In this document: positions 35,844 to 58,797 of the stretch, piece by piece | Layout of the letters: the number at the start of each line of letters is the position of its first letter | Position numbering within the stretch: position 1 is the stretch's first letter | NCBI GenBank assembly: GCA_002968845.1 | Contig: PVBG01000009.1 | Location: 1 to 64,000, forward strand | Length of the DNA: 64,000 nt | Origin: Neorhizobium tomejilense | GTDB lineage: Bacteria > Pseudomonadota > Alphaproteobacteria > Rhizobiales > Rhizobiaceae | Direction of reading: 5' to 3' | Program-made: the position numbers and the translations under genes | The notes under the pieces: model-generated | Told to the model about the DNA's origin: nothing | What the model saw: only the letters and a program-made list of their open reading frames with translations | Database searches by the model: none

Positions 35844-35853
35844 GGGGGACGCC

Positions 35854-38228: not shown

Positions 38229-38239
38229 CAAAATCTCCT

Positions 38240-41505: not shown

Positions 41506-42321
41506 ATGCGCTTCCGCCGACAGAGTCTCCTTCCCTTGACCGACCTTGCATTCCAACTCCTCTTCCTGCTGTTTCTTGCTGCGATTTTTGCCGGTTTCGT
41601 CGATTCGATCGCCGGCGGTGGCGGGCTCATCACCATTCCGGTCATGCTGATCGCCGGCATCCCGCCGCTCGAATCGCTTGCTACGAACAAACTGCAGTCG
41701 CAGTTCGGGTCGGCATCCGCGACGATCGCCTATGCGCGCCGTGGCCATGTGAACTTGAAAAGCCAGTTGCCAATGGCGGCCATGTCGATGGTCGGCGGGG
41801 CCGTCGGTGCCGTGCTCGCGTCGCTGGTGCCGGCGGGCTGGCTTGCCGCGGCAATCCCGTTCCTGCTGATCGCCATCGCGCTGTTCTTCGCCATCAAGCC
41901 CAATCTCAACGATATCGACAGTCACCGTCGGGTGACGCCCTTCGTGTTCGGGGTGACGATCGTCCCGTTGGTCGGCCTGTATGACGGCATATTCGGGCCT
42001 GGCGCCGGCTCGTTCTACATGCTGGGTTTCGTGCTGCTCGCCGGCTTTGGCATGCTAAAGGCGACCGCCCATACCAAGCTCATCAATCTCGGCTCGAATT
42101 TCGGCTCGTTCCTGGTCTTTGCGGCAACCGGGTCCGTGCTTTGGAAGATTGGCCTGATCATGGGCGTCGGCCAGTTCCTCGGCGCCCAGGTCGGCTCACG
42201 GCTGGCCATGAAGAACGGTGCGAAGCTGATCAAGCCGCTGCTCGTCATCTCCTGCCTGGCGCTCGCCCTGAAACTGCTCGCCGACCCGACCCATCCCGTC
42301 CGCGTCTGGCTCGGCTTCTAG
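41506..42321 (+). CDS. TSUP (TauE/SafE) family transporter
   Basis: A 271-residue membrane protein with about eight helices. Both halves carry the TSUP pattern: [19 protein letters not shown] with [12 protein letters not shown] in the first, and [20 protein letters not shown] with [15 protein letters not shown] in the second. These proteins export or import sulfur-containing anions; the substrate is unknown. The ATG at 41506 is used; a TTG at 41536 would remove ten basic residues. Its stop overlaps the stop of the convergent cobU gene. Confidence 0.87.
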
Positions 42322-42839
42322 CCCTTCATCCTCAGCGGCAGACCGGCGGCGACGAAGAAGACCTCGTCGGCAGATGCCGCGATCCGCTGATGCAGCCTTC
42401 CGGCATGGTCCCTGAACTCCCGCGCCATTCTGTTGTCCGGCACGATGCCGAGGCCGACCTCGTTGGAGACGACGATCAGTTTCGCCGAGAGGCTTTCGAA
42501 CCGGCGCACGAATGCGGCGGCGGCAGTGTCGATATCGCGCTCGTCCATCATCAGGTTGGTGAGCCAGAGCGTCAGGCAATCGACAAGGATGACCCTCCCC
42601 CGCGCATCGATGTCGGTCAGTCTCTCCACCAGGTCGAGCGGCACTTCATGCGTGGTCCAGCCGTCTCCGCGATCGACACGATGCCGGGCGATGCGCTCGC
42701 GCATCTCGTCGTCATAGGCACGACCGGTGGCAACGTAGTGCCGTTCCAGGCCGCTCTCCCGGGCAAGCCTTTCCGAAAACCCGGATTTGCCCGAGCGGGC
42801 GCCGCCGAGGACAAGGGTGACGTGACCGATGCGTGTCAT
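42318..42839 (-). CDS. cobP: Adenosylcobinamide kinase/guanylyltransferase (CobP/CobU)
   Basis: A 173-residue bifunctional enzyme of nucleotide-loop assembly in cobalamin synthesis. The P-loop is GGARSGKS at residues 12-19, the guanylylated His lies in [14 protein letters not shown] near 49-62, and [14 protein letters not shown] is the conserved Asp motif. The C-terminal [10 protein letters not shown] is typical. Its presence fits the cobalamin-dependent enzymes encoded downstream, though the loci are not adjacent. I see no cobalamin riboswitch upstream and no good ribosome site before the ATG. Confidence 0.92.
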
Positions 42840-43581: not shown

Positions 43582-44577
43582 ATGAAAAAAATCCTCGCTT
43601 CCATGGTCTTCGCCGGCGGTCTCTATGCTTTTGCAGGTTCGGCACAAGCTGATTGTGGTTCAGTCTCGATCGCCGAAATGAACTGGGCTTCGGCCGGCAT
43701 TGCGGCCAATCTCGACAAGATCATCCTCGAACAAGGTTTCGGCTGCACGGTCCAGCTCGTCCCGGGCGACACGCTTCCGACCTTCACTTCCATGAACGAA
43801 AGAGGCCAGCCGGATCTGGCACCGGAGTTCTGGATCAACTCGGTGCGCACCACACTCGACAAGGCCGTTGCCGAGGGCCGCATGATCGTCGGAGCGGAGA
43901 TCCTCTCCGACGGGGCCGTCGAAGGCTGGTGGATCCCGAAATTCCTCGCCGACGCCCATCCCGATATCAAGACCGTGCAGCAGGCACTGATGCATCCGGA
44001 TCTTTTCCCGGCACAGCAGAAGCCCGGAAGGGGTGCCATCTATAACTGCCCGTCCGGCTGGAGCTGCCAGGTTTCGACCGCCAACCTTTTCCGGGCGCTT
44101 GGCGCCGAGGAAAAGAAGTTCGATCTGATCGATACCGGCACTGCCGCCGGCCTTGACGGTTCGATCACCAACGCCTTCGAGAAAAAGACCGGCTGGCTCG
44201 GCTACTACTGGGCGCCGACCGCCTTCCTCGGCAAATACGAGATGGTGAAGCTCTCCTTCAACGTCCCGCACGACAAGGCCGATTGGGACGCCTGCACCGC
44301 CGTGCCGAACTGCCCGAACCCGAAGGTCAACTCCTATCCGACCTCCCAGGCCTTCACTCTGGTCACCAAACAGTTCGCCCAGAAGGCCGAGGTGGCGATG
44401 GACTATATCAAGAGGCGCAAGTGGACCAATACGACGGTCAACAGCGCGCTCGCCTGGCAGGAAGCGAACAAGAGCACCAACGAAGCCGCCGCCAAACATT
44501 TCCTGCAAAGCAGTCCGGACATCTGGACCAAGTGGGTCGCTCCCGACGTCGCCGACAAGATCAAGGCAGCGCTCTGA
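43582..44577 (+). CDS. ProX/OpuAC-type quaternary-amine binding protein (orphan)
   Basis: A 331-residue periplasmic protein with a signal peptide cleaved near AQA (residue 23). It belongs to the OpuAC fold for betaine, choline and similar ligands: SIAEMNWASAGIAANLDKIILEQGFGCTVQLVPGDTLPTFTSM near the N terminus, with many Trp residues (WW at about 112, WLGYYW, WTKW) that could form an aromatic box. No permease or ATPase gene is adjacent, so it must use distant partners. It precedes the bmt gene by 118 bases on the same strand, suggesting a betaine-type ligand. Confidence 0.88.
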   Translation: MKKILASMVFAGGLYAFAGSAQADCGSVSIAEMNWASAGIAANLDKIILEQGFGCTVQLVPGDTLPTFTSMNERGQPDLAPEFWINSVRTTLDKAVAEGRMIVGAEILSDGAVEGWWIPKFLADAHPDIKTVQQALMHPDLFPAQQKPGRGAIYNCPSGWSCQVSTANLFRALGAEEKKFDLIDTGTAAGLDGSITNAFEKKTGWLGYYWAPTAFLGKYEMVKLSFNVPHDKADWDACTAVPNCPNPKVNSYPTSQAFTLVTKQFAQKAEVAMDYIKRRKWTNTTVNSALAWQEANKSTNEAAAKHFLQSSPDIWTKWVAPDVADKIKAAL

Positions 44578-44647
44578 GGCGATTGTTTGAACCGGCGCTG
44601 CTGAAGCCGCCAGCGTCGCGAAGAGGCATGCGGCAGCGAGTTGCAAT

Positions 44648-44669
44648 CATATAAAGGATTCTTTATATG
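44648..44669. promoter_or_regulatory. Perfect SahR-like palindrome before the homocysteine methyltransferase gene
   Basis: CATATAAAG (44648-44656), four bases, CTTTATATG (44661-44669) is a perfect inverted repeat ending 26 bases before the start codon. This AT-rich form resembles, from memory, operators of SahR, an ArsR-family repressor of methionine-cycle genes that responds to S-adenosylhomocysteine. I found no second copy in the window. The site is seen; its regulator is inferred. Confidence 0.65.
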
Positions 44670-44695
44670 ATATTTCCATTGCAAGGAGCGCCGCC

Positions 44696-45709
44696 ATGCC
44701 GACCGCCAACGCACTGACCGAACTTCTGGCCGAAAAGGGCGTGCTGCTGGCCGACGGCGCGACCGGCACCAATCTCTTCGCCATGGGCCTGGACGCCGGC
44801 GAAGCGCCGGAACTGTGGAATGAGGCCGCGCCTGAAAAGATCGAGAAGCTGCATCAGGATTTCGTCGATGCGGGCGCCGACATCATCCTCACCAATTCCT
44901 TCGGCGGCACGCGCCAGCGGCTGAAGCTGCACAAGGCTGAAGGCCGGGTGCACGAACTCAACCGGCTTGCGGCCGAGATTGCCCGCAAGGTGGCAGACGG
45001 AGCGGGCCGCAAGGTGATCGTCGCGGGTTCGGTCGGACCGACCGGCGAATTGTTCGTTCCGCTCGGAGCCCTGACCTACGAGGATGCGGTCGCCGCCTTC
45101 GCGGAACAGATCGAGGGCCTGAAGGCCGGCGGCGCCGATATCGCCTGGATCGAGACGATGTCCGCGCCGGAAGAAATCCGCGCGGCGGCCGAAGCTGCCG
45201 TCAGGGCCGGGTTGCCCTATACCTACACCGGCTCTTTCGACACGGCCGGCAGGACGATGATGGGCCTCGATCCCAAGCAGATCCACGGCGTGGCGAAGGA
45301 TGTCGGCGAAGGCCCGGTCGCGGCCGGTGCCAATTGCGGCGTCGGCGCCTCCGATATCCTGTCGAGCCTGCTCGACATCACCGCCGCCGATCCTGACGCC
45401 GTCACCATCGTCAAGGGCAATTGCGGCATTCCGGAATTTCGCGGCGCCGAGATCTTCTATTCCGGCACGCCGCCGCTGATGGCCGAATATGCGAGGCTCG
45501 CCCGCGATGCCGGCGCAAGGATCATCGGCGGATGCTGCGGCACGTCCTGCGAACACCTGGCCGCCATGCGCGCCGCACTCGACGATTATACCCCTCGGCC
45601 GCGACCGACGATCGAGGAAATCGTCGACAAGATCGGCCCGCTGCGCAATAAGACAGCCAGTGAATCGGGCGGAGATTCCGGCCGGGAAAGACGCCGCCGC
45701 CGCGGCTGA
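44696..45709 (+). CDS. bmt: Homocysteine S-methyltransferase domain protein (betaine–homocysteine methyltransferase type)
   Basis: A 337-residue protein of the homocysteine methyltransferase barrel. Zinc-binding Cys are visible in VKGNCGIPEF near residue 243 and IIGGCCGTS near 278. It also has GATGTNLFAMGL near the N terminus and TNSFGGTRQRL near 65. Rhizobial relatives are called Bmt and use glycine betaine or a methyl-corrinoid donor to make methionine. It could alternatively be the homocysteine module of a split methionine synthase. The C terminus is an unusual Arg run (GRERRRRRG). A SahR-like operator precedes it. Confidence 0.85.
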   Translation: MPTANALTELLAEKGVLLADGATGTNLFAMGLDAGEAPELWNEAAPEKIEKLHQDFVDAGADIILTNSFGGTRQRLKLHKAEGRVHELNRLAAEIARKVADGAGRKVIVAGSVGPTGELFVPLGALTYEDAVAAFAEQIEGLKAGGADIAWIETMSAPEEIRAAAEAAVRAGLPYTYTGSFDTAGRTMMGLDPKQIHGVAKDVGEGPVAAGANCGVGASDILSSLLDITAADPDAVTIVKGNCGIPEFRGAEIFYSGTPPLMAEYARLARDAGARIIGGCCGTSCEHLAAMRAALDDYTPRPRPTIEEIVDKIGPLRNKTASESGGDSGRERRRRRG

Positions 45710-45732
45710 CCGTTGGGCTGAAGGACACAGAC

Positions 45733-46077
45733 ATGGCAAACATATCCCCGATCGGCAGCCGGGAAACGGTAGCGGAGAGCCTTTCCACTTTCTCGACCGA
45801 AAATCAGTCCTGGCTGATGCTGTTGATGGACAATCCGACGTCCGACGACCTGCTGCTCGATGGTTTGCACCTCTACCTGCATAACGCGTCGGAAGCGAAG
45901 TTCCTGAATTCGCTGAAGCTGCAGAAGTGCGGCGAGTGGATCGGCGACATCGCCCCTGCCCGGCTGCAGATCCGGCTGATGGAGGCGGCGAAATCCAGCC
46001 AGCACCCGGCCTATTCAGCGTTTCGCGACGGGCTCGCCCGCTCCGGTGGGCTGGAGCGGGCATACCCCAAGGTTTGA
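45733..46077 (+). CDS. Hypothetical 114-residue protein after bmt
   Basis: I do not recognise this protein. It starts 23 bases after bmt with GAAGGACA upstream, so it is probably cotranscribed. It is acidic in the first half, with a Leu-rich helix (MLLMDNPTSDDLLLDGLHLYLH), then a basic stretch (LNSLKLQKCGEWIGD, single Cys), and no signal or membrane segment. The family link to methyl transfer is only positional. Its end is seven bases from the convergent VWA gene. Confidence 0.65.
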   Translation: MANISPIGSRETVAESLSTFSTENQSWLMLLMDNPTSDDLLLDGLHLYLHNASEAKFLNSLKLQKCGEWIGDIAPARLQIRLMEAAKSSQHPAYSAFRDGLARSGGLERAYPKV

Positions 46078-46084
46078 GTGCCGC

Positions 46085-48142
46085 CTAACGACGGTCCAGG
46101 GTTTCGGCGAGCCGCACCAGGTCGAGGAACCCGCCCCGATATCCGAACGCATCCTCGCCGCGGGCATTGCGCGCCATGTCGAGGATCAGGCGGTAGGGAT
46201 AGGCGTCGAGCGCATCGGTGCCGCGCAGTTTCTGACCGAAGGCGGCGACGGCCGTGGCGAAACGCACGTCCTGAGGCGCCGTCGAGAAGTCGCGCACCGC
46301 ATTCATTTCGGTGACGACAGTGGTGATCAGCTTGCTGGTGTCGCCATCCGGCTGCTTGTAGCGGATCTTGACGAAGGCCATTTCATCGGAGACCGGGATT
46401 GGCGCCGACGCCGCGGCCGGGCCGTAACGGAGCGGGTCGTTGAGCGCCGAGGCACTGCCTTTCGGCGTCACCTCGTAGATCGCCGTCACCGCATGGCCGG
46501 AGCCGATATCGCCGGCATCCACCCGGTCGTTGTTGAAATCCTCACGCTTCAGCGCCCGGGTCTCGTAGCCGACCAGACGATATTCGCCGATCTGTTGCGG
46601 ATTGAACTCCACCTGGATCTTGACGTCCTTGGCGATCGGGAAAAGCGTCGAGCCGGCCTCGTCGACAAGCGCCTTCTGCGCCTCGGCGAGCGTATCGATA
46701 TAGGCGGCCGTGCCGTTGCCGTTCTGAGCGAGCATCTGCATCAGGCTGTCGTTGAGATTGCCCTTTCCGAAACCGAGAACCGACAGGAAGATGCCGTCCT
46801 TGCGGCGCTGCTCGATGATCCGCTTGAGCTCTTCGTCGCTCGAAACGCCCACGTTGAAATCGCCGTCGGTGGCCAGCATCACCCGGTTGACGCCGCCCTG
46901 GATAAAGGCCTGGCGGGCCAGGCGATAGGCCGCATCGATGCCTTCGGCGCCGGCCGTCGAGCCGCCGGGCCGCAGATTGTCGATTGCAGCGAGAATCTTG
47001 TCCCGCTCACGGGCGGACGTCGGCTCAAGCACCGTCCCGGCATTGCCTGCATAGGTGACGATCGAGACCTTGTCCTCCGGCTTCAGCTTGCCGACCAGCA
47101 GCCGGAAAGCGCTTTTCAGCAAAGGCAGCCTGTCCGGCGCGTTCATCGAGCCTGAGACGTCGATCAGGAAAACGAGATTGGCGGCAGGCTGCGCGGCCGG
47201 CGCGGTCTCGAAACCCTTGATCGCCACATGCATCAGCCGCGTGCCGCTATTCCACGGCGTCGGCGTGACGGTGACGGTGGTGCGGAACGGTTCGTCGACC
47301 GTCTGCGGCCGTGGCCAGTCATAGGGGAAATAATTGATCATCTCCTCGACACGCACACTGTCGGGATCAGGCAGATGTCCCTCCAGCAGCGAGCGTCGGA
47401 CGAAGGCGTAGGACGCGGTATCGACGTCGACGGAGAAGGTCGAGACAGGATCGGTCGCGACGCTCTTTACCGGATTGGTGTTCGCATTGGCGAAACGGTC
47501 GCGGCTTTCTTCGAGTGTCGGCAGGATTTCGCGCTCGGTTGGCGCATAACGGGGAGCGGCGGCCAATGGTACCGCGCGCTCAGCCATGACCGGCGGCGGT
47601 GCCACGGGAGCGGGCGCCACGCTTCCTTTGGCCGCGCCGCCGCTGGCCTCCCGCTTGTTCAGCAGCCGGGCAACATCCGAGGCGTCAAAATCGCTTTGCC
47701 TGGGTTGAGCCGATGGTGCAGCGTCACTCCCCCGTACCGCTTCCTGCTGCCGCGGTTCAGCCGGCTTCGCGACTGACGGCACCGGACCTCTTTCCACAGT
47801 GGGCTTCGGCGCGTCCAGGACTTGCGGCAGGGCGACCTGGCCTGAGTTCGGCAGGTTTCCGCGCGTCAGTTCGAATGTCAGCAGTGCGGCTGTGGGAATG
47901 ATCAGCATCGTCGCAAGCGCAGAGCCGGCGAGATAACGGTGTTGGGTGACCATGCGAGTGCTCCAGATCCGGTTGAGAACGGAGCTTTGACGCTGCCACC
48001 AGGAACTTCCTTTGCCGGGTGCGGCATTTTTTTCCGTCTCGTCGAACGCCTGCATGGCGGCGGCAAGCGCACGGGCGCGTGCCGCATCGGAAGCGCGGGG
48101 CGCCGGCGCAAGGTTGCCGAGCTGGTCGAATTCGTCCGTCAT
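46085..48142 (-). CDS. Membrane-anchored von Willebrand factor A domain protein (YfbK-like)
   Basis: A 685-residue protein. Residues 1-65 are likely cytoplasmic, one membrane helix follows at about 66-95 (YLAGSALATMLIIPTAALLTF), then a Pro/Ala-rich linker to about 200, a YfbK N-terminal domain (TDPVSTFSVDVDTASYAFVRRSLLEG), the VWA domain near 310-500 with the MIDAS motif DVSGSMN and later ATDGDFNVG, and a DUF3520-like C terminus. The start at 48142 has GGAGG upstream, two bases past the sigma stop codon. It may be the sigma factor's membrane partner. Confidence 0.88.
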   Translation of the reverse strand: MTDEFDQLGNLAPAPRASDAARARALAAAMQAFDETEKNAAPGKGSSWWQRQSSVLNRIWSTRMVTQHRYLAGSALATMLIIPTAALLTFELTRGNLPNSGQVALPQVLDAPKPTVERGPVPSVAKPAEPRQQEAVRGSDAAPSAQPRQSDFDASDVARLLNKREASGGAAKGSVAPAPVAPPPVMAERAVPLAAAPRYAPTEREILPTLEESRDRFANANTNPVKSVATDPVSTFSVDVDTASYAFVRRSLLEGHLPDPDSVRVEEMINYFPYDWPRPQTVDEPFRTTVTVTPTPWNSGTRLMHVAIKGFETAPAAQPAANLVFLIDVSGSMNAPDRLPLLKSAFRLLVGKLKPEDKVSIVTYAGNAGTVLEPTSARERDKILAAIDNLRPGGSTAGAEGIDAAYRLARQAFIQGGVNRVMLATDGDFNVGVSSDEELKRIIEQRRKDGIFLSVLGFGKGNLNDSLMQMLAQNGNGTAAYIDTLAEAQKALVDEAGSTLFPIAKDVKIQVEFNPQQIGEYRLVGYETRALKREDFNNDRVDAGDIGSGHAVTAIYEVTPKGSASALNDPLRYGPAAASAPIPVSDEMAFVKIRYKQPDGDTSKLITTVVTEMNAVRDFSTAPQDVRFATAVAAFGQKLRGTDALDAYPYRLILDMARNARGEDAFGYRGGFLDLVRLAETLDRR

Positions 48143-48144
48143 GG

Positions 48145-48672
48145 TCAAACCGCCTCCTTCTTCAGAAGGTCCTTCAATCGTTTGCGAGCCTCGTGCAGAT
48201 GCCAGGAGACCGTGTTTTCGCTGCAGTCGAGAACGCCCGCCGCAGCCGCATGGGAGAGCCCTTCGCTATGGACCAGCAGGACCGCATCCCGCTGCTTTTC
48301 CGGCAGGCGGCGCACCGCGGCCCACAGCCAGTTGCCGCGATCATCCTCCTCCGGCTCCAGATGCGAAAAGAAGATCGGGTCGTTTGCAAGCCGGTCCTGG
48401 TCCCGTCGCCGGCGGGAGGACTGGCGCTGATGGTCGCGCACCGCATTCAGTGTCAGCGTGTAGAGCCAGGTGCGGAACGCCGACTGCCCCTTGAAGCTGC
48501 GGATCGCCTTGCCCAGGCGGATGCAGACGTCCTGGGCGATGTCTTCCGCATCGCTTTGCGAGCCGCACCAGCGCCAGGCGACGGCATGAATGAAATCGTA
48601 ATGCGCCGCGACGAGCGCTGAAAACGCATTGCGGTCGCCCTGGCATGCCTTATCGAGGATTTCCGCGCTCAC
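48145..48672 (-). CDS. ECF-type RNA polymerase sigma factor
   Basis: A 175-residue sigma factor with region 2 at about residues 10-80 (YDFIHAVAWRWCGSQSDAEDIAQDVCIRLGKAIRSFKGQSAFRTWLYTLTLNAVRDHQR) and region 4 at about 115-170 (LPEKQRDAVLLVHSEGLSHAAAAGVLDCSENTVSWHLHEARKRL). The GTG at 48672 is the start, with AGGCGGATAA upstream. It is followed directly by the VWA membrane protein gene, a pairing common in alphaproteobacteria. No separate anti-sigma gene is seen. Confidence 0.92.
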   Translation of the reverse strand: MSAEILDKACQGDRNAFSALVAAHYDFIHAVAWRWCGSQSDAEDIAQDVCIRLGKAIRSFKGQSAFRTWLYTLTLNAVRDHQRQSSRRRRDQDRLANDPIFFSHLEPEEDDRGNWLWAAVRRLPEKQRDAVLLVHSEGLSHAAAAGVLDCSENTVSWHLHEARKRLKDLLKKEAV

Positions 48673-48756
48673 TTATCCGCCTGCTTTTCCGTCGCTTGAG
48701 AGCTTAGACGTTTCGCTCCGGAAATTCCTTGGGTACCCAGGAAAAACTTTTTTCGC

Positions 48757-49434
48757 TCACCGCACCAGCGCTTCCATATGGAACCGGAGCTGCCCCAGCG
48801 GGTAGCGATATTGTACACCCACCGGACAGGAATTACGGGCAACGCAGCCGGAGACCATGCAGGTCACCTTGCTTGCATCGCTTGCAAGATAGGCGCTGCA
48901 TCGGGGAATGTCGAAGCCCGACAGGCTGACCGCATTGACGGGACAGGCCGACAGGCAGGGCTTTTCGGCGCAGCTCTCGCAAGGATGCTTGGCCTCACCC
49001 GGCGAACTCTCTATCGCGAAAGGAAAACCCAGAGCGCCGCGATAACCGTGCCAGAGCCCGAACTGCGGATGGATGAGGATGCCGAGCGGCGACGACTTCA
49101 GACCTTCGGCCTTCATCGCCCATTGCTGGAACGGCTGCCAGGGCGGATCGGAGGGGAAATAGGCAGCGGCTCCGAGCTGCTCGGCGAGCGGCCGGATCAG
49201 GGACTTCGACCACGTATCGAGGGGATCGGGACCGTCATGGTCTTTTCGCCATTCCGTGAACGACGGCCAGATCGAACCGCCGACATTGCCGAGCAATACG
49301 ACGGACCTGGCAAGTGCGCCGTCACCCAGCAACGGCCCCTCGCCCGTTCCGAAATTCACCACCCCGCGGATCAGGATGCCGTGGGGTTCGAGCCCCGCGG
49401 CAATCTCGTCGAGAACTGGTGAAGGCGGCCTCAC
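48757..49434 (-). CDS. Small 4Fe-4S protein, QueG-like C-terminal part
   Basis: A protein of about 225 residues with two iron-sulfur Cys clusters near its end: CESCAEKPCLSACPVNA (C-x2-C-x4-C-x3-CP) and CSAYLASDASKVTCMVSGCVARNSCPVG. They resemble the ferredoxin region of epoxyqueuosine reductase-like corrinoid proteins, but the protein is far shorter than QueG (over 350 residues). The start is uncertain; a GTG at 49434 with AGGGG upstream is chosen. It follows the MttB-family gene on the same strand, so it may supply electrons to corrinoid reactivation. Confidence 0.65.
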   Translation of the reverse strand: MRPPSPVLDEIAAGLEPHGILIRGVVNFGTGEGPLLGDGALARSVVLLGNVGGSIWPSFTEWRKDHDGPDPLDTWSKSLIRPLAEQLGAAAYFPSDPPWQPFQQWAMKAEGLKSSPLGILIHPQFGLWHGYRGALGFPFAIESSPGEAKHPCESCAEKPCLSACPVNAVSLSGFDIPRCSAYLASDASKVTCMVSGCVARNSCPVGVQYRYPLGQLRFHMEALVR

Positions 49435-49535
49435 CGAGGCCCCTGGTATTTGTAGTGAGGGCGCCAAACCCCTTCCTGGACGAAATCGGCGACCAGCCTG
49501 GCACCGCCTTGCTCCCTGGCGGCATCGGGCTCTCT

Positions 49536-51110
49536 TCAGGTGAAGGCGTCGGGCATCGAATCCTTGCGATCCTTGATGAACGCCAGCAGCGCTTCGTCGA
49601 TCGCGGGATCGAGCGGCGGTGCTTCGTAGCTGTCGAGCCAGGAGCGGCAGAGCGCATTGGCGCGCTGCTCGATCCGCTTCTCGCCCTCGATTTCCCACTG
49701 TTCGAAGGAATTGTTGTCCATCAGCGCCGAACGGTAGAAGGCCGTCTGGAAATGCGCCTGGGTATGGGCGCAGCCGAGATAATGGCTTCCGGGGCCGACT
49801 TCGCGGATCGCGTCGAGAGCCTGGCCCTCTTCGGACAAATCGACGCCCTGCGCCATCTTCTGCATCATGCCGAGCTGATCCTGGTCGATCATGAATTTCT
49901 CGTAGGACGACACCAGGCCGCCTTCCAGCCAGCCGGCGGCATGCAGCACGAAGTTTGTGCCGGCGAGCAGCGTCGTGTTCAGCGTATTGGCCGATTCGTG
50001 CGCCGCCTGGGCATCGGGCACTTTCGAGCCGCAGAGCGAACCGCCTGTGCGGAACGGCAGGCCGAGGCGGCGGGCAAGCTGGGCGGCACCGTAAGAGACC
50101 AGCGACGGCTCCGGGGTCCCGAAAGTCGGCGCACCGGACTGCATCGAGATCGAGGCCGCGAACGTTCCGAACAGCACCGGCGAGCCCTTGCGGATCAGTT
50201 GCGTCAGCGCAGCACCGGCCAGCACCTCGGCAAGGATCTGCGTCAGCGTGCCGGTCACCGTTACCGGGCTCATCGCGCCCGAGAGAATGAACGGCGACAC
50301 GACCGAGGCCTGGTTATGCCGCGCATACACCTTCAGTGCGCCGAGCATGGTCCCGTCGAACACCATCGGAGAGTTGGCGTTGATAAGGTTCAGGGTGACG
50401 CAATTGTTCTCGACGAACTCGTCGCCGAAGACCAGCTTCGCCATGGCGACGGTGTCCTCGGCGCGTTCCGGTGCGGTGACCGATCCCATGAACGGCTTGT
50501 CGGAATATTTGATATGGCTGTAGATCATATCGAGATGCCGCTTGTTGACCGGCACGTCGACCGGCTCGCAGACAGTGCCGCCCGACGAATGCATCGACGG
50601 CGCCATATAGGCGAGCTTCACGAAATTGCGGAAATCCTCGATCGTCGCATAACGGCGCTTGCCGTCGAGGTCGCGCACGAAGGGAGGTCCGTAGACCGGT
50701 GCGAACACGGTCGCCTTGCCGCCGATCTGGACATTGCGCTCCGGGTTGCGCGCATGCCAGGTGATTTCGCTCGGTGCGGTCTTCAGGAGTTCGCGGCAGA
50801 GGCCCTTGGGGAAATGCACCCGGTGGCCCCGGACGTCGGCACCCGCCTGCGCCCAGAGTTCGAGCGCTTCCTCGTCTTCGCGGAATTCGATGCCGATCTC
50901 TTCGAGGATCAGATCCGCATTACGCTCGATGAGAGCGAGACCCTCCTCGTCCAGCACCTCGTAGACACCGATCTTGCGGGTGATATAGGGCAAGGAGAGG
51001 CCTGGACCGTTACCTGCGCGGGCTGCGCGACGGCCTGCCGCTCCCCGCTCGCCGCGGCCACGTCTGGCCCCGCTGCCTGCCGGTTCCGTCTCTGGGGTCA
51101 AATCGTCCAT
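49536..51110 (-). CDS. MttB superfamily corrinoid methyltransferase, non-pyrrolysine
   Basis: A 524-residue protein of the trimethylamine methyltransferase superfamily, reading through without an internal TAG, so no pyrrolysine. Relatives include MtgB, which moves a methyl from glycine betaine to a corrinoid protein. The barrel spans about residues 50-510: IYSHIKYSDKPFMGSVTAPERAED and LCGSKVPDAQAAHESANTL are family stretches. The N-terminal 33 residues are odd: ARRGRGERGAAGRRAARAG at 15-33 is Arg/Gly/Ala-rich. The start at 51110 has GAGGAAC upstream. It is divergent from the corrinoid protein gene. Confidence 0.9.
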   Translation of the reverse strand: MDDLTPETEPAGSGARRGRGERGAAGRRAARAGNGPGLSLPYITRKIGVYEVLDEEGLALIERNADLILEEIGIEFREDEEALELWAQAGADVRGHRVHFPKGLCRELLKTAPSEITWHARNPERNVQIGGKATVFAPVYGPPFVRDLDGKRRYATIEDFRNFVKLAYMAPSMHSSGGTVCEPVDVPVNKRHLDMIYSHIKYSDKPFMGSVTAPERAEDTVAMAKLVFGDEFVENNCVTLNLINANSPMVFDGTMLGALKVYARHNQASVVSPFILSGAMSPVTVTGTLTQILAEVLAGAALTQLIRKGSPVLFGTFAASISMQSGAPTFGTPEPSLVSYGAAQLARRLGLPFRTGGSLCGSKVPDAQAAHESANTLNTTLLAGTNFVLHAAGWLEGGLVSSYEKFMIDQDQLGMMQKMAQGVDLSEEGQALDAIREVGPGSHYLGCAHTQAHFQTAFYRSALMDNNSFEQWEIEGEKRIEQRANALCRSWLDSYEAPPLDPAIDEALLAFIKDRKDSMPDAFT

Positions 51111-51374
51111 GATGTTCCTCGCCTCCGCTTTGAAAAGCGCCTCAAGCCTTTTTGATGCGCCATGCTAGGCTCATGCGCAAGCCGAGCCCCGCCTTTCTGC
51201 GTCACGGGTTTGTACAGGACAGACATCACGCCGTGATCTTCCGTCGTTTTTCCGACGCGCCGCTGTCGCATACGAAAGAAATTGCCAAGCAAATTAAAGG
51301 TACAGATAGTCGGGACGGTAAACGTCTGATTTGCCGGCCTTCGAGCCGGCCCCTCGAACGAAGGGAAGCATTGC

Positions 51375-52076
51375 ATGTCCGACGACGAAATCATCCTGGC
51401 GGAACTTTCAGACGAGGAACTCGTGCAGCAGATGCACGACGATCTTTACGACGGCTTGAAGGAGGAGATCGAGGAGGCGACCAACATCCTGCTCGCCCGC
51501 GGCTGGACGCCCTATGACGTCCTCACCAAGGCCCTGGTCGAGGGCATGCGCATCGTCGGCATCGACTTCCGCGACGGCATTCTTTTCGTGCCGGAAGTGC
51601 TGCTCTCGGCGAGTGCCATGAAGGCGGGCATGTTCATCCTGCGGCCGCTTCTGGTCGAGACCGGCGCTCCCAAACTCGGCAAGATGGTGATCGGCACCGT
51701 CAAGGGCGACATCCACGACATCGGCAAGAACCTCGTCGGCATGATGATGGAGGGAGCGGGCTTCGACGTGGTCGATCTTGGCATCAACAACCCCGTCGAG
51801 AACTATCTCGATGCGATTGAGCGGGAGCAGCCGGATATTCTCGGAATGTCGGCGCTTTTGACTACGACCATGCCCTATATGAAGGTCGTCATCGATACGC
51901 TGAAGGAAAAGGGTATGCGCGACGACTATATCGTGCTTGTCGGCGGCGCGCCGCTCAACGAGGAATTCGGCAAGGCGGTCGGCGCCGATGCCTATTGCCG
52001 CGATGCGGCGGTCGCTGTCGAAACGGCAAAGGAATACATCCGCCGCAAGCACAACAGCCTTGCCGCCGGCGCCTGA
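51375..52076 (+). CDS. Corrinoid (B12-binding) protein, MtbC/MtgC type
   Basis: A 233-residue protein with the B12-binding cap (residues about 12-95: DLYDGLKEEIEEATNILLARGWTPYDVLTKALVEGM) and the Rossmann cobalamin domain. The base-off ligand His is in VKGDIHDIGKNLVGMM near residues 113-128, with later LLTTTMPYMK and VLVGGAPLNEEFG motifs. It shuttles the methyl group between methyltransferases. The start at 51375 follows GAAGGGAAG. It is divergent from the MttB gene and upstream of DUF1638 and the pterin methyltransferase. Confidence 0.95.
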   Translation: MSDDEIILAELSDEELVQQMHDDLYDGLKEEIEEATNILLARGWTPYDVLTKALVEGMRIVGIDFRDGILFVPEVLLSASAMKAGMFILRPLLVETGAPKLGKMVIGTVKGDIHDIGKNLVGMMMEGAGFDVVDLGINNPVENYLDAIEREQPDILGMSALLTTTMPYMKVVIDTLKEKGMRDDYIVLVGGAPLNEEFGKAVGADAYCRDAAVAVETAKEYIRRKHNSLAAGA

Positions 52077-52106
52077 GGCGCCGAACGGCTTGCTGACGGC
52101 GACGCC

Positions 52107-52265
52107 TTAGCGCGCAGCGCGATCGACCCGGCGTCCCGCATCCTGCGTGGCATTGACGGTATTGGCCGCATCCTGGCCCATGCCGCGAATGGTATTGCCG
52201 CAGGACGTGAGAGAAACCATCGTCGCGAAAAGAGCGGCGATCACCGTGACTGTCTTGGCCGTCAT
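52107..52265 (-). CDS. Entericidin-like small lipoprotein
   Basis: A 52-residue lipoprotein: basic start, hydrophobic signal and the lipobox LTSC at about residues 19-22, then NTIRGMGQDAANTVNATQDAGRRVDRAAR, typical of the EcnA/EcnB family. The family is small membrane-interacting lipoproteins of unclear role outside enterobacteria. It is on the minus strand, between the corrinoid and DUF1638 genes, an unrelated insertion. Confidence 0.85.
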   Translation of the reverse strand: MTAKTVTVIAALFATMVSLTSCGNTIRGMGQDAANTVNATQDAGRRVDRAAR

Positions 52266-52279
52266 GTTAGAATACTCCG

Positions 52280-52921
52280 ATGGAGAGAGATGAAATCGTG
52301 GCGGAAATGGAATTTCCGGCAAAGGAACGTTCAACTCGCGAAAAAGTTCACGTGATCGCGTGCGGAGCGATCGCGCGGGAAATCCTTGCTGTTTCCAGGC
52401 AGCAGGGCCTCGGTCACATCGACCTCAACTGCCTGCCGGCGATCTGGCACGCCTATCCGCAGAAGATCGTTCCGGGTCTCGAAAAAGCCGTCGCCGAGGC
52501 GAGGGAAGCGGGTTTCGAAAAAATCTTTTTCGCCTATGCGGATTGCGGAACCGGCGGCGACATCGACCGTCTCTGTGAGCGCGAGGGCATCGCCCGCATC
52601 GAAGGCCCGCACTGTTATTCCTTCTTCGCCGGAAACGACGCTTTTGCCGCAAAAGCGGACGAAGACCTGTTCTCGTTCTTCCTGACAGACTTCCTCGCCC
52701 GCCAGTTCGAGGCCTTCGTCATCGAACCGCTCGGCCTCGACCGCCACCCGCAGCTCAAGGACATGTATTTCGGCAATTACCGAAAACTCGTCTATCTCAG
52801 CCAGGAGGAAGACACGGTCCTTCAGGACAAGGCGCGTGGAGCCGCCGAGTACCTCGGCCTGGAATACGAATACCGCTTCACCGGCTACGGCGACCTCACG
52901 CAGGCGTTACGCTCGGTTTAA
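52280..52921 (+). CDS. DUF1638 protein of the corrinoid island
   Basis: A 213-residue protein of DUF1638. It has VHVIACGAIAREILAV near residues 23-38, many conserved Cys/His (CLPAIWHAYP, YADCGTGGDIDRLCE, GPHCYSFFAGND) and YFGNYRKLVYL near the end. DUF1638 genes recur beside corrinoid methyltransferases but have no known biochemistry; the Cys/His pairs suggest metal binding. The start is unsure: ATGs lie at 52280 and 52307. Confidence 0.82.
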   Translation: MERDEIVAEMEFPAKERSTREKVHVIACGAIAREILAVSRQQGLGHIDLNCLPAIWHAYPQKIVPGLEKAVAEAREAGFEKIFFAYADCGTGGDIDRLCEREGIARIEGPHCYSFFAGNDAFAAKADEDLFSFFLTDFLARQFEAFVIEPLGLDRHPQLKDMYFGNYRKLVYLSQEEDTVLQDKARGAAEYLGLEYEYRFTGYGDLTQALRSV

Positions 52922-52979
52922 CCGTTTCTTCGGGCCTTCGGCGGAAGAGTGCGGCCCTGCGCTTTTTGCGGGGGGATCG

Positions 52980-53753
52980 ATGCAGGACGAGAATTCTCGG
53001 ATCGTGGTGATGACATCGGGCGGGCTGAACCCACAGGTGATGATCAACGCATTGGCAAAACATTTTCCCGACCTGCATGTCGTCGAAGAACAGCCGGAAT
53101 CGAAGGGCACGCTGCTGAAACGCCGCGCCCGGCGGTTCGGCTGGTTCACAGCGCTTGGCCAACTGGCGACGATGATCGCCTCGAGGCTGACCAAGAGCGT
53201 GGCGGCAAGGCGCTCCGCCGAAATCATCCGCGACTACGGCCATTCCGCCGAACCGAACCCGGCAATCCCCCTGACGCACGTGCCCTCCCTCAACGATCCG
53301 GCCTGTCACGCAGCGGTGACAGCCCTGAAACCCGCTGCGATCTTCACCATATCCTGCCGCATCCTGTCGCCGCAGACGCTTGCCGCTGTCCCCTGCCCGG
53401 TGATCAACTTCCACGCCGGCATCAACCCGATGTACCGCGGCCAGATGGGCGGTTACTGGTCGCGCGTCGAAGGCGACGAGAAGAACTTTGGCGCCACCGT
53501 GCATCTGGTCGACAAGGGCATCGATACCGGTGGGACGCTCTACGAGAAGCGGGTGGAGCCGGCGCGCTCGGATTCGCTCGCCACCTATCCGCTGCTGATG
53601 ACCGCCTCTTCCGTCGACATCAGCGTCCGCGCGCTTCAGGATGCCATCGACGGAACGCTGAAGCCGTACCAGCCGCAAGGCCTCTCCGCGCTACGTTTCC
53701 CACCGCCGATCTGGACCTGGCTCTATCACGGGCTGACCCGGAAGATCTGGTAA
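52980..53753 (+). CDS. Formyltransferase-like protein
   Basis: A 257-residue protein whose second half resembles formyltransferase catalytic domains: VINFHAGINPMYRGQMGGYWSRVEGDEKNFGATVHLVDKGIDTGGTL (residues about 140-187). This has the HAGxxPxYRG and DxGxDTG motifs of Fmt and GART. The N-terminal half (VVMTSGGLNPQVMINALAKHFPD) is a Rossmann-like half. It probably uses 10-formyl-tetrahydrofolate, linking it to one-carbon metabolism. It lies 59 bases after DUF1638 and is preceded by GGGGGGATCG. Confidence 0.82.
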   Translation: MQDENSRIVVMTSGGLNPQVMINALAKHFPDLHVVEEQPESKGTLLKRRARRFGWFTALGQLATMIASRLTKSVAARRSAEIIRDYGHSAEPNPAIPLTHVPSLNDPACHAAVTALKPAAIFTISCRILSPQTLAAVPCPVINFHAGINPMYRGQMGGYWSRVEGDEKNFGATVHLVDKGIDTGGTLYEKRVEPARSDSLATYPLLMTASSVDISVRALQDAIDGTLKPYQPQGLSALRFPPPIWTWLYHGLTRKIW

Positions 53754-53882
53754 CCGGCATCCGGCCCGGCATCCCGCAAGGCAATCCCATCGCCGCGTCG
53801 TATTTTGCTGGGTGCGACGTCGTCGCAAGCGCAGTCTTGTCGCCCGCACCCGTGCATGCTGCACCTTAACACGGAGGAATTC

Positions 53883-54185
53883 ATGGCCGACCGCATCGTC
53901 GTCTTCTGGCGGGATATTCCGGCGCAGGTGATCATCAAGAAGGGCCGCCAGACCGCCAAGCGGGAACTGTCGCTGCGCTTCACCGAGGCGATCGACATGT
54001 GCGCGATGCGCAGCGGCGCCGCCGGCACCGACGACTATCTCGCAGAATGGCGCAAGGCCGAACCGATCGCCGTTTCCGACGATCTTGAGGCCGAAGCCGA
54101 CAGGGCTGCAGCCGAGCTCGAAGCAGCCTATGACAGGGAAAAACTCGTCGCGCTGGTGAAGACCGGCGGCCGCGAAACCGCCTGA
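53883..54185 (+). CDS. PF13769-type 'virulence factor' protein
   Basis: A 100-residue protein of the small family called 'virulence factor' in Pfam: MADRIVVFWRDIPAQVIIKKGR at the start and SLRFTEAIDMCAMRSGAAGTDDYLAEWRKAEP in the middle. The name reflects a Brucella screen; the biochemistry is unknown. In this locus the Cys at about residue 40 and its place before the folate methyltransferase suggest a one-carbon role. The start at 53883 follows GGAGGAATTC. Confidence 0.85.
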   Translation: MADRIVVFWRDIPAQVIIKKGRQTAKRELSLRFTEAIDMCAMRSGAAGTDDYLAEWRKAEPIAVSDDLEAEADRAAAELEAAYDREKLVALVKTGGRETA

Positions 54186-54237
54186 CGTTCAGACAATCAC
54201 ATCGTTTCTGCGCCGCATCGCGCGCCTGGAGGAAGAA

Positions 54238-55200
54238 ATGACCCGCACCATCGTCGCATCCGCAACCCGGGAGATCGTGATCGGCTTCGACCAGCCCTTT
54301 TGCGTGATCGGCGAACGCATCAACCCGACGGGCCGCAAGAAGCTCGCGGCCGAGATGATCGAGGGCAATTTCGACACGGTCATCAGGGACGCGCTGGAAC
54401 AGGTGGCGGCGGGTGCCACCATGCTCGATGTCAATGCCGGGGTCACCTCGGTCAATCCCAACGAGACCGAACCTGGCCTGCTCGTCCGGACGCTGGAGAT
54501 CGTCCAGGGCCTCGTCGACGTGCCGCTGTCGATCGACAGTTCGGTGACAGCGGCCATCGAAGCAGCGCTGAAAGTCGCCAAAGGCCGGCCACTGGTCAAT
54601 TCGGTGACCGGCGAGGAGGAAAAGCTCGAGGCCATCCTGCCGCTCTGCAAGAAATACGACGTACCGGTGGTAGCGATCTCCAACGACGAGACCGGCATTT
54701 CAATGGATCCGGACGTCCGATTCGCGGTCGCCAAGAAGATCGTCGAACGGGCCGCCGACTACGGCATCAAGCCGCATGACATCGTCGTCGATCCGCTGGT
54801 CATGCCGATCGGCGCATTGGGCGATGCCGGACGCCAGGTCTTCGCGCTACTGTATCGCCTGCGCAACGAACTCAAGGTCAACACGACCTGCGGGCTTTCC
54901 AACATCTCCTTCGGCCTGCCGCACCGCCACGGCATCAATGCCGGCTTCATTCCGATGGTGATCGGCGCCGGAATGACGTCGGCGATCATGAACCCCTGCC
55001 GGCCGCAGGAAATGGAAGCGGTGCGCGCCGCCAACGTGCTGAACGGCACGGATCAGAACTGCGGTAACTGGATCATGACCTATCGGGACTATAAGCCGGT
55101 CGAAGGCGGTGGAACTGCTGCGACGGCTGCACCTTCGGCTGCCAGCGGCCGACGCGGCGGCCGGGCCGCACGGGCTGGCGCCGGAGCGCGGACGGAGTAA
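54238..55200 (+). CDS. Methyltetrahydrofolate:corrinoid methyltransferase (pterin-binding domain)
   Basis: A 320-residue pterin-binding barrel: GERINPTGRKKLA near residues 23-35, MLDVNAG near 62, VPLSIDSS near 94, VNSVTGEEEKLEAIL near 120, and GLSNISFGLPHRHGINAGF near 218. It exchanges methyl between methyl-THF and the corrinoid protein, as in MtvA/AcsE-type enzymes and the folate module of MetH. The C terminus from residue 304 is Arg/Gly/Ala-rich (GRRGGRAARAGAG), not part of the barrel. It is followed 11 bases later by the reactivator gene. Confidence 0.93.
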   Translation: MTRTIVASATREIVIGFDQPFCVIGERINPTGRKKLAAEMIEGNFDTVIRDALEQVAAGATMLDVNAGVTSVNPNETEPGLLVRTLEIVQGLVDVPLSIDSSVTAAIEAALKVAKGRPLVNSVTGEEEKLEAILPLCKKYDVPVVAISNDETGISMDPDVRFAVAKKIVERAADYGIKPHDIVVDPLVMPIGALGDAGRQVFALLYRLRNELKVNTTCGLSNISFGLPHRHGINAGFIPMVIGAGMTSAIMNPCRPQEMEAVRAANVLNGTDQNCGNWIMTYRDYKPVEGGGTAATAAPSAASGRRGGRAARAGAGARTE

Positions 55201-55211
55201 GTACAGGTATC

Positions 55212-57248
55212 ATGGCGGATATTTCCAAGAGAGATCCCCTCGTCCTCTTCATGCCGTCTGGCAAGCGCGGCCGGTTTCCGGTCGGCACGCCGGTGCTCGA
55301 TGCCGCGCGCCAGCTTGGCGTCTACGTGGAGAGCGTCTGCGGCGGGCGGGCGACCTGCGGGCGCTGCCAGGTCTCGGTCCAGGAGGGACATTTCGCCAAG
55401 CACGGCATTACCTCGGCGAACGACCACCTGTCGCCGATCGGCCCGAAGGAGGAGCGCTACGACCGCGTGCGGGGGCTTCCCGAAGGACGCCGCCTCTCCT
55501 GCTCGACCCAGATCCTCGGCGATCTCGTCGTCGACGTGCCGCAGGATACGGTGATCAATGCGCAGGTGGTCCGCAAGGCCGCCGATGAGCGTGTCTTCGA
55601 CCGCAATCCGGCGATCCGCATGTGTTATGTCGAGGTGGAAGAGCCCGACATGGAAAAACCGCTCGGCGATCTCGACCGCCTGAAGGCGGCGCTTGCCGCC
55701 GAGTGGCATTTCGACGATCTGGATGTCGATTTCCACCTGGTTCCCAAGGTCCAGCAGATCCTGCGCAAGGGCGAATGGAAGGTCACGGCGGCAATTCACA
55801 AGGACCGGGACGACGATCGCGCCCGCCTCGTCGCGCTCTATCCCGGCCTGAAGAACGAGGCCTACGGGATTGCCTGCGATATCGGCTCGACGACGATCGC
55901 CATGCATCTGTCGTCGCTGCTGTCGGGCCGTACCGTGGCGTCGGCAGGCACATCGAACCCGCAGATCCGCTTTGGCGAGGATCTGATGAGCCGCGTTTCC
56001 TATGTGATGATGAACCCGGACGGGCGCGAGGCGATGACATTAGCCGTGCGCGAGGCGCTGAACGGGTTGATCGACAGGGTCTGCGCCGATGGCGGCGTGT
56101 CCCGCGCCGACATTCTCGACAGCGTCTTCGTCGGCAACCCGATCATGCACCATCTGTTCCTCGGGATCGATCCGACCGAGCTTGGCGGAGCCCCCTTTGC
56201 GCTTGCCGTTTCCGGAGCGGTAAAGGTCAGATCCTCCGAGATCGGCCTGCCGATGAACGACGGTACCCGCACTTATCTCCTGCCCTGCATCGCCGGCCAT
56301 GTCGGCGCCGATGCCGCCGCGGCAACCCTGTCGGAAGGTCCGCACCGGCAGGAGGAGATGATGCTGCTGGTCGATATCGGCACCAATGCGGAAATCGTGC
56401 TCGGCAATTCGACCCGCGTCGTCGCGGCCTCCTCGCCGACCGGTCCGGCCTTCGAAGGTGCCGAAATCTCTTCGGGCCAGCGGGCAGCACCCGGCGCCAT
56501 CGAGCGGATCCGCATCGACGCCGAAACGCTCGAGCCGCGCTTCCGGGTGATCGGTATCGAACCCTGGTCGGACGAGCCGGGTTTCGCCGATGCAGCCGCT
56601 GCGACCGGCATCACCGGCATTTGCGGTTCGGCGATCATCGAAGTGATTGCCGAAATGTATCTCGCCGGACTGATCTCGGAAGACGGCGTGGTGGACGGGA
56701 CCATGGCGGAGCGCAGCCCGCGCATCCTCCAGAACGGCCGGACCTTCTCCTATCTCGTGCATGACGGCGAGCAGCGCATCACCGTGACCCAGAACGACGT
56801 GCGCGCCATCCAGCTCGCCAAGGCGGCGCTTTATGCCGGCGTCAAGCTGTTGATGGACAAGCAGGGCGTCGACCATGTCGACCGCATCGGCCTTGCCGGC
56901 GCCTTCGGCACGTTCATCGATCCGAAATACGCGATGGTGCTGGGTCTTATCCCGGATTGCGATCTGGGCCGCGTCAAATCGGTCGGCAATGCCGCCGGCA
57001 CGGGCGCGCGGATGTGCCTGCTGAACCGCGGCTACCGCCGCGAGATCGAGGAAACCGTGAGCAGGATCGAGAAGATCGAGACGGCGCTGGAGCCGAAATT
57101 CCAGGAGCATTTCGTCTATGCCATGGCCCTGCCGAACAAGGTCGATGCCTTCCCGCACCTGGCGGCAGTCATCACCCTGCCGGAGCGAAAGGTACCAGCC
57201 GAGGCTTCGGGAGAAGGCGGCCGCAGACGTCGCCGCGGCCGCGAGTAG
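55212..57248 (+). CDS. RACo-type corrinoid reactivator (2Fe-2S plus ASKHA domains)
   Basis: A 678-residue protein. Residues about 10-95 form a [2Fe-2S] ferredoxin domain with CGGRATCGRC (Cys-x5-Cys-x2-Cys) and a distal Cys in LSCSTQ. After a linker, residues about 215-640 are the DUF4445/ASKHA ATPase fold: ACDIGSTTIAMHLSS, GEDLMSRVSYVM, VDIGTNAEIVL and GLAGAFGTF. It reduces inactive Co(II) corrinoid to Co(I) at the cost of ATP. Same layout as RACo and RamA-like activators. The C-terminal end is GRRRRRGRE. Its stop is two bases from that of the convergent LysR gene. Confidence 0.93.
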   Translation: MADISKRDPLVLFMPSGKRGRFPVGTPVLDAARQLGVYVESVCGGRATCGRCQVSVQEGHFAKHGITSANDHLSPIGPKEERYDRVRGLPEGRRLSCSTQILGDLVVDVPQDTVINAQVVRKAADERVFDRNPAIRMCYVEVEEPDMEKPLGDLDRLKAALAAEWHFDDLDVDFHLVPKVQQILRKGEWKVTAAIHKDRDDDRARLVALYPGLKNEAYGIACDIGSTTIAMHLSSLLSGRTVASAGTSNPQIRFGEDLMSRVSYVMMNPDGREAMTLAVREALNGLIDRVCADGGVSRADILDSVFVGNPIMHHLFLGIDPTELGGAPFALAVSGAVKVRSSEIGLPMNDGTRTYLLPCIAGHVGADAAAATLSEGPHRQEEMMLLVDIGTNAEIVLGNSTRVVAASSPTGPAFEGAEISSGQRAAPGAIERIRIDAETLEPRFRVIGIEPWSDEPGFADAAAATGITGICGSAIIEVIAEMYLAGLISEDGVVDGTMAERSPRILQNGRTFSYLVHDGEQRITVTQNDVRAIQLAKAALYAGVKLLMDKQGVDHVDRIGLAGAFGTFIDPKYAMVLGLIPDCDLGRVKSVGNAAGTGARMCLLNRGYRREIEETVSRIEKIETALEPKFQEHFVYAMALPNKVDAFPHLAAVITLPERKVPAEASGEGGRRRRRGRE

Positions 57249-58617: not shown

Positions 58618-58797
58618 TAGTCTGAGACACGCTTTGAGCCTATCGCCTTTGGCAATTACGTCTGCGACCCGCTTATGTCGCAAAAATGTTATCAGCCTGT
58701 CGTCCAAAGCCCTTCTCCGCCGCCTTTCCCCGTGCCAATGTCGCTTTTGAAGAAAAGCGGGCCGCAATGTACGGCCACGAACAAGGGGAATGACGGC

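Follow-up and report, generated by a model that had tools for sequence, protein, structure and literature searches.

What do separately encoded corrinoid methyl-transfer proteins do in a bacterium that also carries an intact methionine synthase, and how might such proteins be kept active in air? These questions are raised by a gene cluster, here called the island, at positions 43582-57248 of the window, by which we mean the whole stretch of DNA analysed, bases 1-64000 of contig C72 of Neorhizobium tomejilense (genome size, 6.56 Mb; completeness, 99.99%). An earlier note on this DNA had listed a homocysteine methyltransferase module, a B12-binding protein, a pterin-binding methyltransferase, a RACo-type reactivator, an MttB-superfamily methyltransferase, a DUF1638 protein, a formyltransferase-like protein and a PF13769 protein, all of which were confirmed as separate chains by Pfam and NCBIfam matches. 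The listed 4Fe-4S protein fared less well: its gene is present, but its frame has no Pfam match at E <= 0.01. Moreover, the longer frame, with its start at 49698, overlaps mtgB, and its extra part matched the shadow of mtgB in relatives; therefore, the true start is probably the GTG at 49434. The island very probably encodes an MtgBCDE-type modular corrinoid methyltransferase. Judged from its genes, it is a member of the published MtgBCDE system and not new in itself, and the 4Fe-4S protein is the one part of it that looks new.

Gene content and conservation of the island, and an additional intact MetH

Two published systems, cited here from excerpts of the papers, bear on the function of the island. 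In Phaeobacter, methionine is made by three separate modules together with RamA-like and DUF1638 proteins, and a DUF1638 member is required for that synthesis (Price 2018; PMC5764234), the kind of split MetH with a RamA-like reactivator that the earlier note had mentioned. In Ruegeria pomeroyi, loss of mtgC or mtgD causes methionine auxotrophy and abolishes growth on glycine betaine, which added methionine does not restore; in Sinorhizobium meliloti the MtgBCDE genes, both reactivation genes and a cobalamin operon are collocated (Mausz 2025; PMC12478193). These findings imply that the island belongs to the same system, to which it adds a case from the Rhizobiaceae. The window contains stand-alone MtgC, MtgD and MtgE, a pfam06253 MtgB, a RamA-like activase and a DUF1638 protein; a metF2 linked to mtgD, which is a trait of R. 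pomeroyi that is common and not defining, was not among the features found. MtgD matched the NCBIfam model named methyltetrahydrofolate:corrinoid/iron-sulfur protein methyltransferase, and the best NCBIfam match of MtgC was the MtgC model itself, at a score under the cut-off of that model.

Conservation was assessed in 81 loci, namely the window and the best 80 of at least 583 relatives from an MtgC alignment scan (69 of the 81 loci longer than 20 kb). Island genes were counted by tblastn at E <= 1e-8 within flanks of 10 kb, so that genes farther off or past contig ends were missed. Besides mtgC (81 loci), matches were obtained for DUF1638 (78), mtgB (73), PF13769 (67), mtgD (67), RACo (65) and mtgE (57), followed by the formyltransferase-like gene (47), the sigma factor (41), VWA (40), LysR (33), GbdR-like (19) and OpuAC (17) genes. 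The recurrence of this gene set in loci fetched by MtgC implies that the grouping is not due to chance. Among the best 80 relatives, the closest locus with a species name was from Neorhizobium huautlense (94%). S. meliloti Ak57 has the core genes in the same order as the window, with extra genes inserted, and two Paracoccus plasmids carry the mtg core, with mtgE not in the stretch displayed.

The reaction steps proposed here are all drawn from homologues. MtgB would load the cob(I)alamin of MtgC with methyl taken from a quaternary amine, most likely glycine betaine. MtgD would exchange the methyl group between MtgC and tetrahydrofolate (THF) in both directions, and MtgE would pass it to homocysteine to form methionine. 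RACo, with the DUF1638 protein, would re-reduce MtgC after loss of Co(I) to oxygen, and the dimethylglycine product would go to the neighbouring dehydrogenase, under control of the GbdR-like regulator. The earlier note's idea that split modules share their corrinoid with an MttB-family betaine enzyme in an aerobe agrees with this homology and with PMC12478193, as far as excerpted, but is weakened as a needed route to methionine. The note had proposed a search for metH elsewhere in the genome and had counted an intact copy as half of what would speak against its idea; such a copy was found on contig C11, as a 1271-residue frame with PF02574, PF00809, PF02607, PF02310 and the activation domain PF02965. 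Consequently, the island is in principle dispensable for methionine.

Like the intact MetH, two findings on methyl-THF oxidation weigh against the MtgBCDE reading. The metV-metF2 pair, present in 55 of the 81 loci, has no match in the island of the window, and PF12225 (the metV family) was not found in the genome. These absences imply that methyl-THF oxidation must use another enzyme. Among 57 genomes of the genus, MTTB was found in 40 and PF12225 in 7, all of them within the 40, so that 33 of the 40 MTTB-bearing genomes are without PF12225. A PF02219 search of the genome returned only MetF, on contig C11, and a protein search detected, on contig C71, another MTHFR-like gene with 44% identity. 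The idea of a block in methyl-THF oxidation through loss of metV-metF2 was dropped in view of this second gene, whose product might itself oxidise methyl-THF. On contig C71 (L140:6961-9446), a gene for a LigM-type vanillate/3-O-methylgallate O-demethylase adjoins the MTHFR-like gene; the 4-oxalomesaconate tautomerase and extradiol-dioxygenase-like genes nearby imply that this is probably an aromatic-degradation cluster, and the LigM-type/MTHFR-like pair is probably a second source and sink of methyl-THF. In seven loci (L023, L041, L059, L061, L064, L066 and L073), another MTHFR-like frame of 289-379 residues, labelled mostly by eye (the L023 frame alone was scanned, as a weak fadh2 match), replaces metV-metF2 between PF13769 and mtgD, which suggests that different enzymes can fill the methyl-THF oxidising role in the island.

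In a purely catabolic island, MtgBCD would serve to demethylate betaine and supply methyl-THF, with methionine coming from MetH and MtgE held in reserve; this is a possibility to be taken seriously, although we lean against it. The co-occurrence of intact MetH and MetF on contig C11 and the lower count of mtgE (57 of 81 loci, where the 10-kb flanks may miss distant copies) than of mtgC (81 of 81) are consistent with it. By contrast, mtgE adjoins the island here, the island is without metV-metF2, and in S. meliloti metH is down-regulated by betaine and a bhmt mutant is inhibited (excerpts of PMC12478193, citing Barra 2006). It is unlikely that the substrate of MtgB is another quaternary amine, such as proline betaine, carnitine or gamma-butyrobetaine, which are substrates of MttB homologues cited in the excerpts of PMC12478193. 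The PDB search with MtgB gave five relatives, with 4yyc at 1036.9 bits and an entry named 'Glycine betaine methyltransferase' (9yce) at 414.1 bits (E 6.7e-123); mtgB is the single MTTB gene in the whole genome; and its neighbours include OpuAC, GbdR-like and dimethylglycine-dehydrogenase-like genes. Finally, it is improbable that MtgE works as a classical one-step betaine-homocysteine methyltransferase (Bmt) next to a separate system of corrinoid genes: the above-cut-off match to the NCBIfam equivalog PRK07534, whose name, betaine--homocysteine S-methyltransferase, speaks against the MtgBCDE assignment, and the annotation of the homocysteine module as bmt in S. meliloti stand against reports in the excerpts of PMC12478193 that the S. 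meliloti homologue is without the residues needed for betaine binding and that the mutant still uses betaine when given methionine.

A small iron-sulfur protein encoded behind mtgB

The gene for the 4Fe-4S protein was found in 65 of the 81 loci, always on the strand of mtgB and, in 57 of the 65, at most 300 bp from it (median gap, 101 bp); S. meliloti and Paracoccus aminovorans are among the named species with the gene behind mtgB. An eight-cysteine pattern like that of the two [4Fe-4S] clusters of QueG is present in 64 of the 65 copies, the exception being a short copy (L061), and the motif HxxxGxWxxxR is present in all 65. In an alignment of 37 of the 65, all eight cysteines and residues H122, G126, W128 and R132 were invariant.

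The AlphaFold model of this protein has a mean predicted local distance difference test (pLDDT) score of 74.8, with residues 11-110 mostly above 85. The top 13 Foldseek matches were all CblC/MMACHC chains, from five human and Caenorhabditis elegans entries (E 2.7e-3 to 2.3e-2; probability 0.99-1.00), followed by QueG and reductive dehalogenases. At the profile level, where the signals towards CblC/MMACHC are weak, the Pfam MMACHC family (PF16690) gave matches at E <= 5 to 21 of 37 members (best E 0.0014), and the MMACHC entries in a PDB profile search aligned over the motif IHPxxGxWxxxRG. The hhalign comparison with 16 QueG proteins scored 77.4% (E 2e-5), from the motif through both clusters, and that with two QueG proteins 53.3%. 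As controls, DUF1638 and MtgC scored 0.3% and 0.4% against QueG, and a two-sequence, PreA-like double-cluster protein, named by eye, scored 3.6% against the 4Fe-4S family.

We tentatively propose that this protein is a minimal B12 redox protein, in which a base-off pocket like that of CblC/MMACHC is wired to two [4Fe-4S] clusters, and that it strips or reduces oxidised or capped corrinoid for MtgC or RACo. In air, Co(I) would be oxidised to Co(II) and Co(III), and RACo, which acts on Co(II), would leave Co(III) or capped corrinoid uncovered; these forms could be treated, and MtgC loaded, by a CblC-like protein that has an electron chain of its own. With the same reserve, we suggest that the protein serves as partner to MttB-type methyltransferases in aerobes by rescuing over-oxidised corrinoid beyond the reach of RACo/RamA, and that it adds a third architecture to those of QueG and the reductive dehalogenases. 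Such rescue, if it occurs, would help to explain how aerobes carry out oxygen-sensitive methyl transfer in the style of anaerobes. A corrinoid reductase at this position would open to test the question of how aerobes preserve a Co(I)-dependent methyltransferase in the presence of oxygen, and would tie methyl transfer in bacteria to the human protein for B12 processing behind cblC disease. Our literature search, which covered titles, abstract openings and term counts and in which coverage of subscription journals was thin, found no description of a CblC-like iron-sulfur protein, a negative that carries little weight, and the terms 4Fe-4S, ferredoxin, formyltransferase and PF13769 are absent from the main text of PMC12478193, figures and supplements being outside that scope.

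The distribution of the protein is consistent with a link to MttB-type methyl transfer. Strong matches were found in 57 of 199 genomes of the order, after exclusion of 7 of the 64 positive genomes, which had given only short, weak matches (E 1e-5 to 7e-4). MTTB is present in 52 of these 57 carriers, compared to 77 of the 199 genomes overall, and RACo in 53 of the 57, compared to 81 of the 199. Among the 81 RACo-positive genomes, the protein is present in 52 of the 73 with MTTB and in one of the eight without (P 0.002, a descriptive value uncorrected for kinship). The distance between the match to the protein and an MTTB match was at most 300 bp in at least 16 of the 57 carriers, spanning eight families, and at most 10 kb in at least 24.

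Several results weigh against a corrinoid reductase partnered with MtgB, for which the evidence from the fold is moderate. The PDB profile search placed plain iron-sulfur proteins at the top (best E 0.036), ahead of QueG (0.11) and MMACHC (0.27-0.44), and the window copy was not among the members with a Pfam MMACHC match at E <= 5. No Foldseek match reached E <= 0.001, the query template modelling (TM) scores were 0.42-0.49, and pLDDT falls below 50 at positions 116-126 of the motif and in parts of the cluster region. The N-terminal module alone scored 0.4% against QueG in hhalign, so that the link to QueG comes from the motif-and-cluster half and the link to CblC from the model. As to distribution, 8 of the 73 loci with an mtgB match (including L020, on a 3.97-kb contig) are without the gene; in Paracoccus methylovorus none is annotated behind mtgB or stands among the listed matches; and 5 of the 57 carriers are without MTTB. 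Likewise, 59 of 398 genomes of the phylum match the protein, which counts against an exclusive link to mtg genes, and of the 20 regions fetched from other genomes, four of which were picked for absence of MTTB, 16 had no match to another island query near the gene. The remainder of the 20 gave one mtgB-like gene, two gbdR-like matches (one of them in the region with the mtgB-like gene) and two sigma-factor matches. In addition, the excerpts of PMC5764234 name only RamA-like and DUF1638 genes for reactivation.

Some of these results are consistent with a plain ferredoxin that feeds RACo or another enzyme and whose CblC-like module binds no corrinoid, a reading that we hold to be possible but doubtful. 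The S. meliloti gene is annotated as 'ferredoxin', RACo accompanies the protein in the 53 carriers noted above, the motif and cluster region were modelled with low confidence, and the gene is found elsewhere with no mtg genes nearby. Set against this are the four invariant residues outside the cysteines, which fall within the stretch alignable to MMACHC and QueG, the CblC chains that head the fold search, and the poor alignment of the PreA-like two-cluster control. The genes that lie apart from island genes imply that the family may have a wider role and may have been recruited to the mtg island. In genomes of one bacterial family (f60), an amino-acid-kinase gene was adjacent to the gene for the 4Fe-4S protein or one gene off in the three regions scanned for it, and YidC was near in the two scanned.

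Features of the window and its surroundings

The coordinates of the island genes and of neighbours in the window are collected in the table below. Neighbours compatible with betaine use are the OpuAC protein, the GbdR-like regulator, the dimethylglycine/sarcosine-dehydrogenase-like protein and CobU, and the functional block is likely to extend beyond 43582-57248 to take in the CobU-type, dehydrogenase-like and GbdR-like genes. Seven Cys/His residues are invariant in 46 aligned members of the DUF1638 family, as a metal-binding protein might have, and a model made from 46 of 78 matches (pLDDT 89.6) gave no convincing match in the PDB.

Table. Genes of the corrinoid methyl-transfer island and its neighbours; functions are putative.
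Feature	Position	Strand	Matches
CobU-type adenosylcobinamide kinase/guanylyltransferase, corrinoid supply (neighbour)	42318-42839	-	PF02283, 205.7 bits; NCBIfam PRK05800, above cut-off
OpuAC glycine betaine-type ABC substrate-binding protein	43582-44577	+	PF04069, E 7.7e-55
MtgE/Bmt, stand-alone homocysteine S-methyltransferase module	44696-45709	+	PF02574, E 7.1e-61; NCBIfam PRK07534, 567 bits (cut-off 338)
4Fe-4S protein, predicted CblC/MMACHC-like module and two-[4Fe-4S]-like module, 225 residues, inferred GTG start, downstream of mtgB	48757-49434	-	
MtgB, MttB-superfamily methyltransferase, putative glycine betaine enzyme (reading frame without stop codon)	49536-51110	-	PF06253, 766.5 bits
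MtgC, stand-alone corrinoid protein, 233 residues, cap and B12 domains	51375-52076	+	PF02607, PF02310
DUF1638 protein	52280-52921	+	PF07796, E 1.6e-25
Formyl_trans_N-like accessory protein, start at 52983 inferred (frame 52836-53753)	52983-53753	+	PF00551, partial, 45.9 bits, E 6.9e-12
PF13769 small accessory protein, true start probably further in	53805-54185	+	PF13769, E 1.3e-25
MtgD, stand-alone methyl-THF:corrinoid methyltransferase	54238-55200	+	PF00809, E 2.8e-28; NCBIfam PRK07535, 391.9 bits (cut-off 259)
RACo/RamA-like ATP-dependent corrinoid reductive activase, RACo linker, middle and C-terminal regions, N-terminal 2Fe-2S (Fer2)	55212-57248	+	PF14574, PF17651, PF17650, PF00111
GbdR-like AraC-family regulator	58675-59826	+	NCBIfam NF052371, 357.2 bits (under cut-off 480); Pfam DJ-1_PfpI, HTH_18
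FAD/THF dehydrogenase, dimethylglycine/sarcosine type	61480-63993	-	DAO, FAO_M, GCV_T, GCV_T_C

Between mtgE and mtgB, at 46085-48672 on the minus strand, lie genes for a YfbK-like VWA protein and a sigma-70/ECF-type protein with no evident tie to methyl transfer. Upstream of the island, at 36942-39439 and 34914-35990 on the minus strand, two beta-ketoacyl-ACP synthases and a lipid A lauroyl-type acyltransferase are encoded, which perhaps serve the long-chain fatty acid of lipid A. Rfam gave no match at gathering scores in the window or in the metH region; the one Rfam match, the small RNA Atu_C9, was near metF.

Comparison with known systems

The island resembles the MtgBCDE system of R. pomeroyi and S. 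meliloti (excerpts of PMC12478193) in having MtgB, MtgC, MtgD, MtgE, RamA-like and DUF1638 proteins, collocated as in S. meliloti; it differs in the absence of metV-metF2, in being accompanied by one MttB only and in the presence of an additional intact MetH in the genome, as in S. meliloti 1021. With the split methionine synthase of Phaeobacter inhibens, the island shares the three separate modules and the RamA-like and DUF1638 proteins. However, the excerpts of PMC5764234 report that PF02965, the reactivation domain, was not found in P. inhibens, whereas the genome studied here has a MetH with PF02965. The MtgB/MtgC/MtgA system of Desulfitobacterium hafniense (cited in the excerpts of PMC12478193) likewise combines an MttB-family betaine methyltransferase, a corrinoid protein and a methyl-THF methyltransferase, but D. 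hafniense is an anaerobe, and roseobacter MtgC is placed on a different branch in that paper.

For the 4Fe-4S protein, the relation to CblC/MMACHC is a predicted likeness of fold, to which this protein would add clusters on a CblC-like module. In the comparison with QueG and the reductive dehalogenases (RdhA), its motif and predicted two-cluster layout can be aligned with those of QueG. At 225 residues, compared to 347-448 residues for the QueG frames, it ends after the clusters, with no room for the C-terminal HEAT domain of QueG or the other parts of RdhA, and thus it looks like the redox core of QueG minus the HEAT domain.

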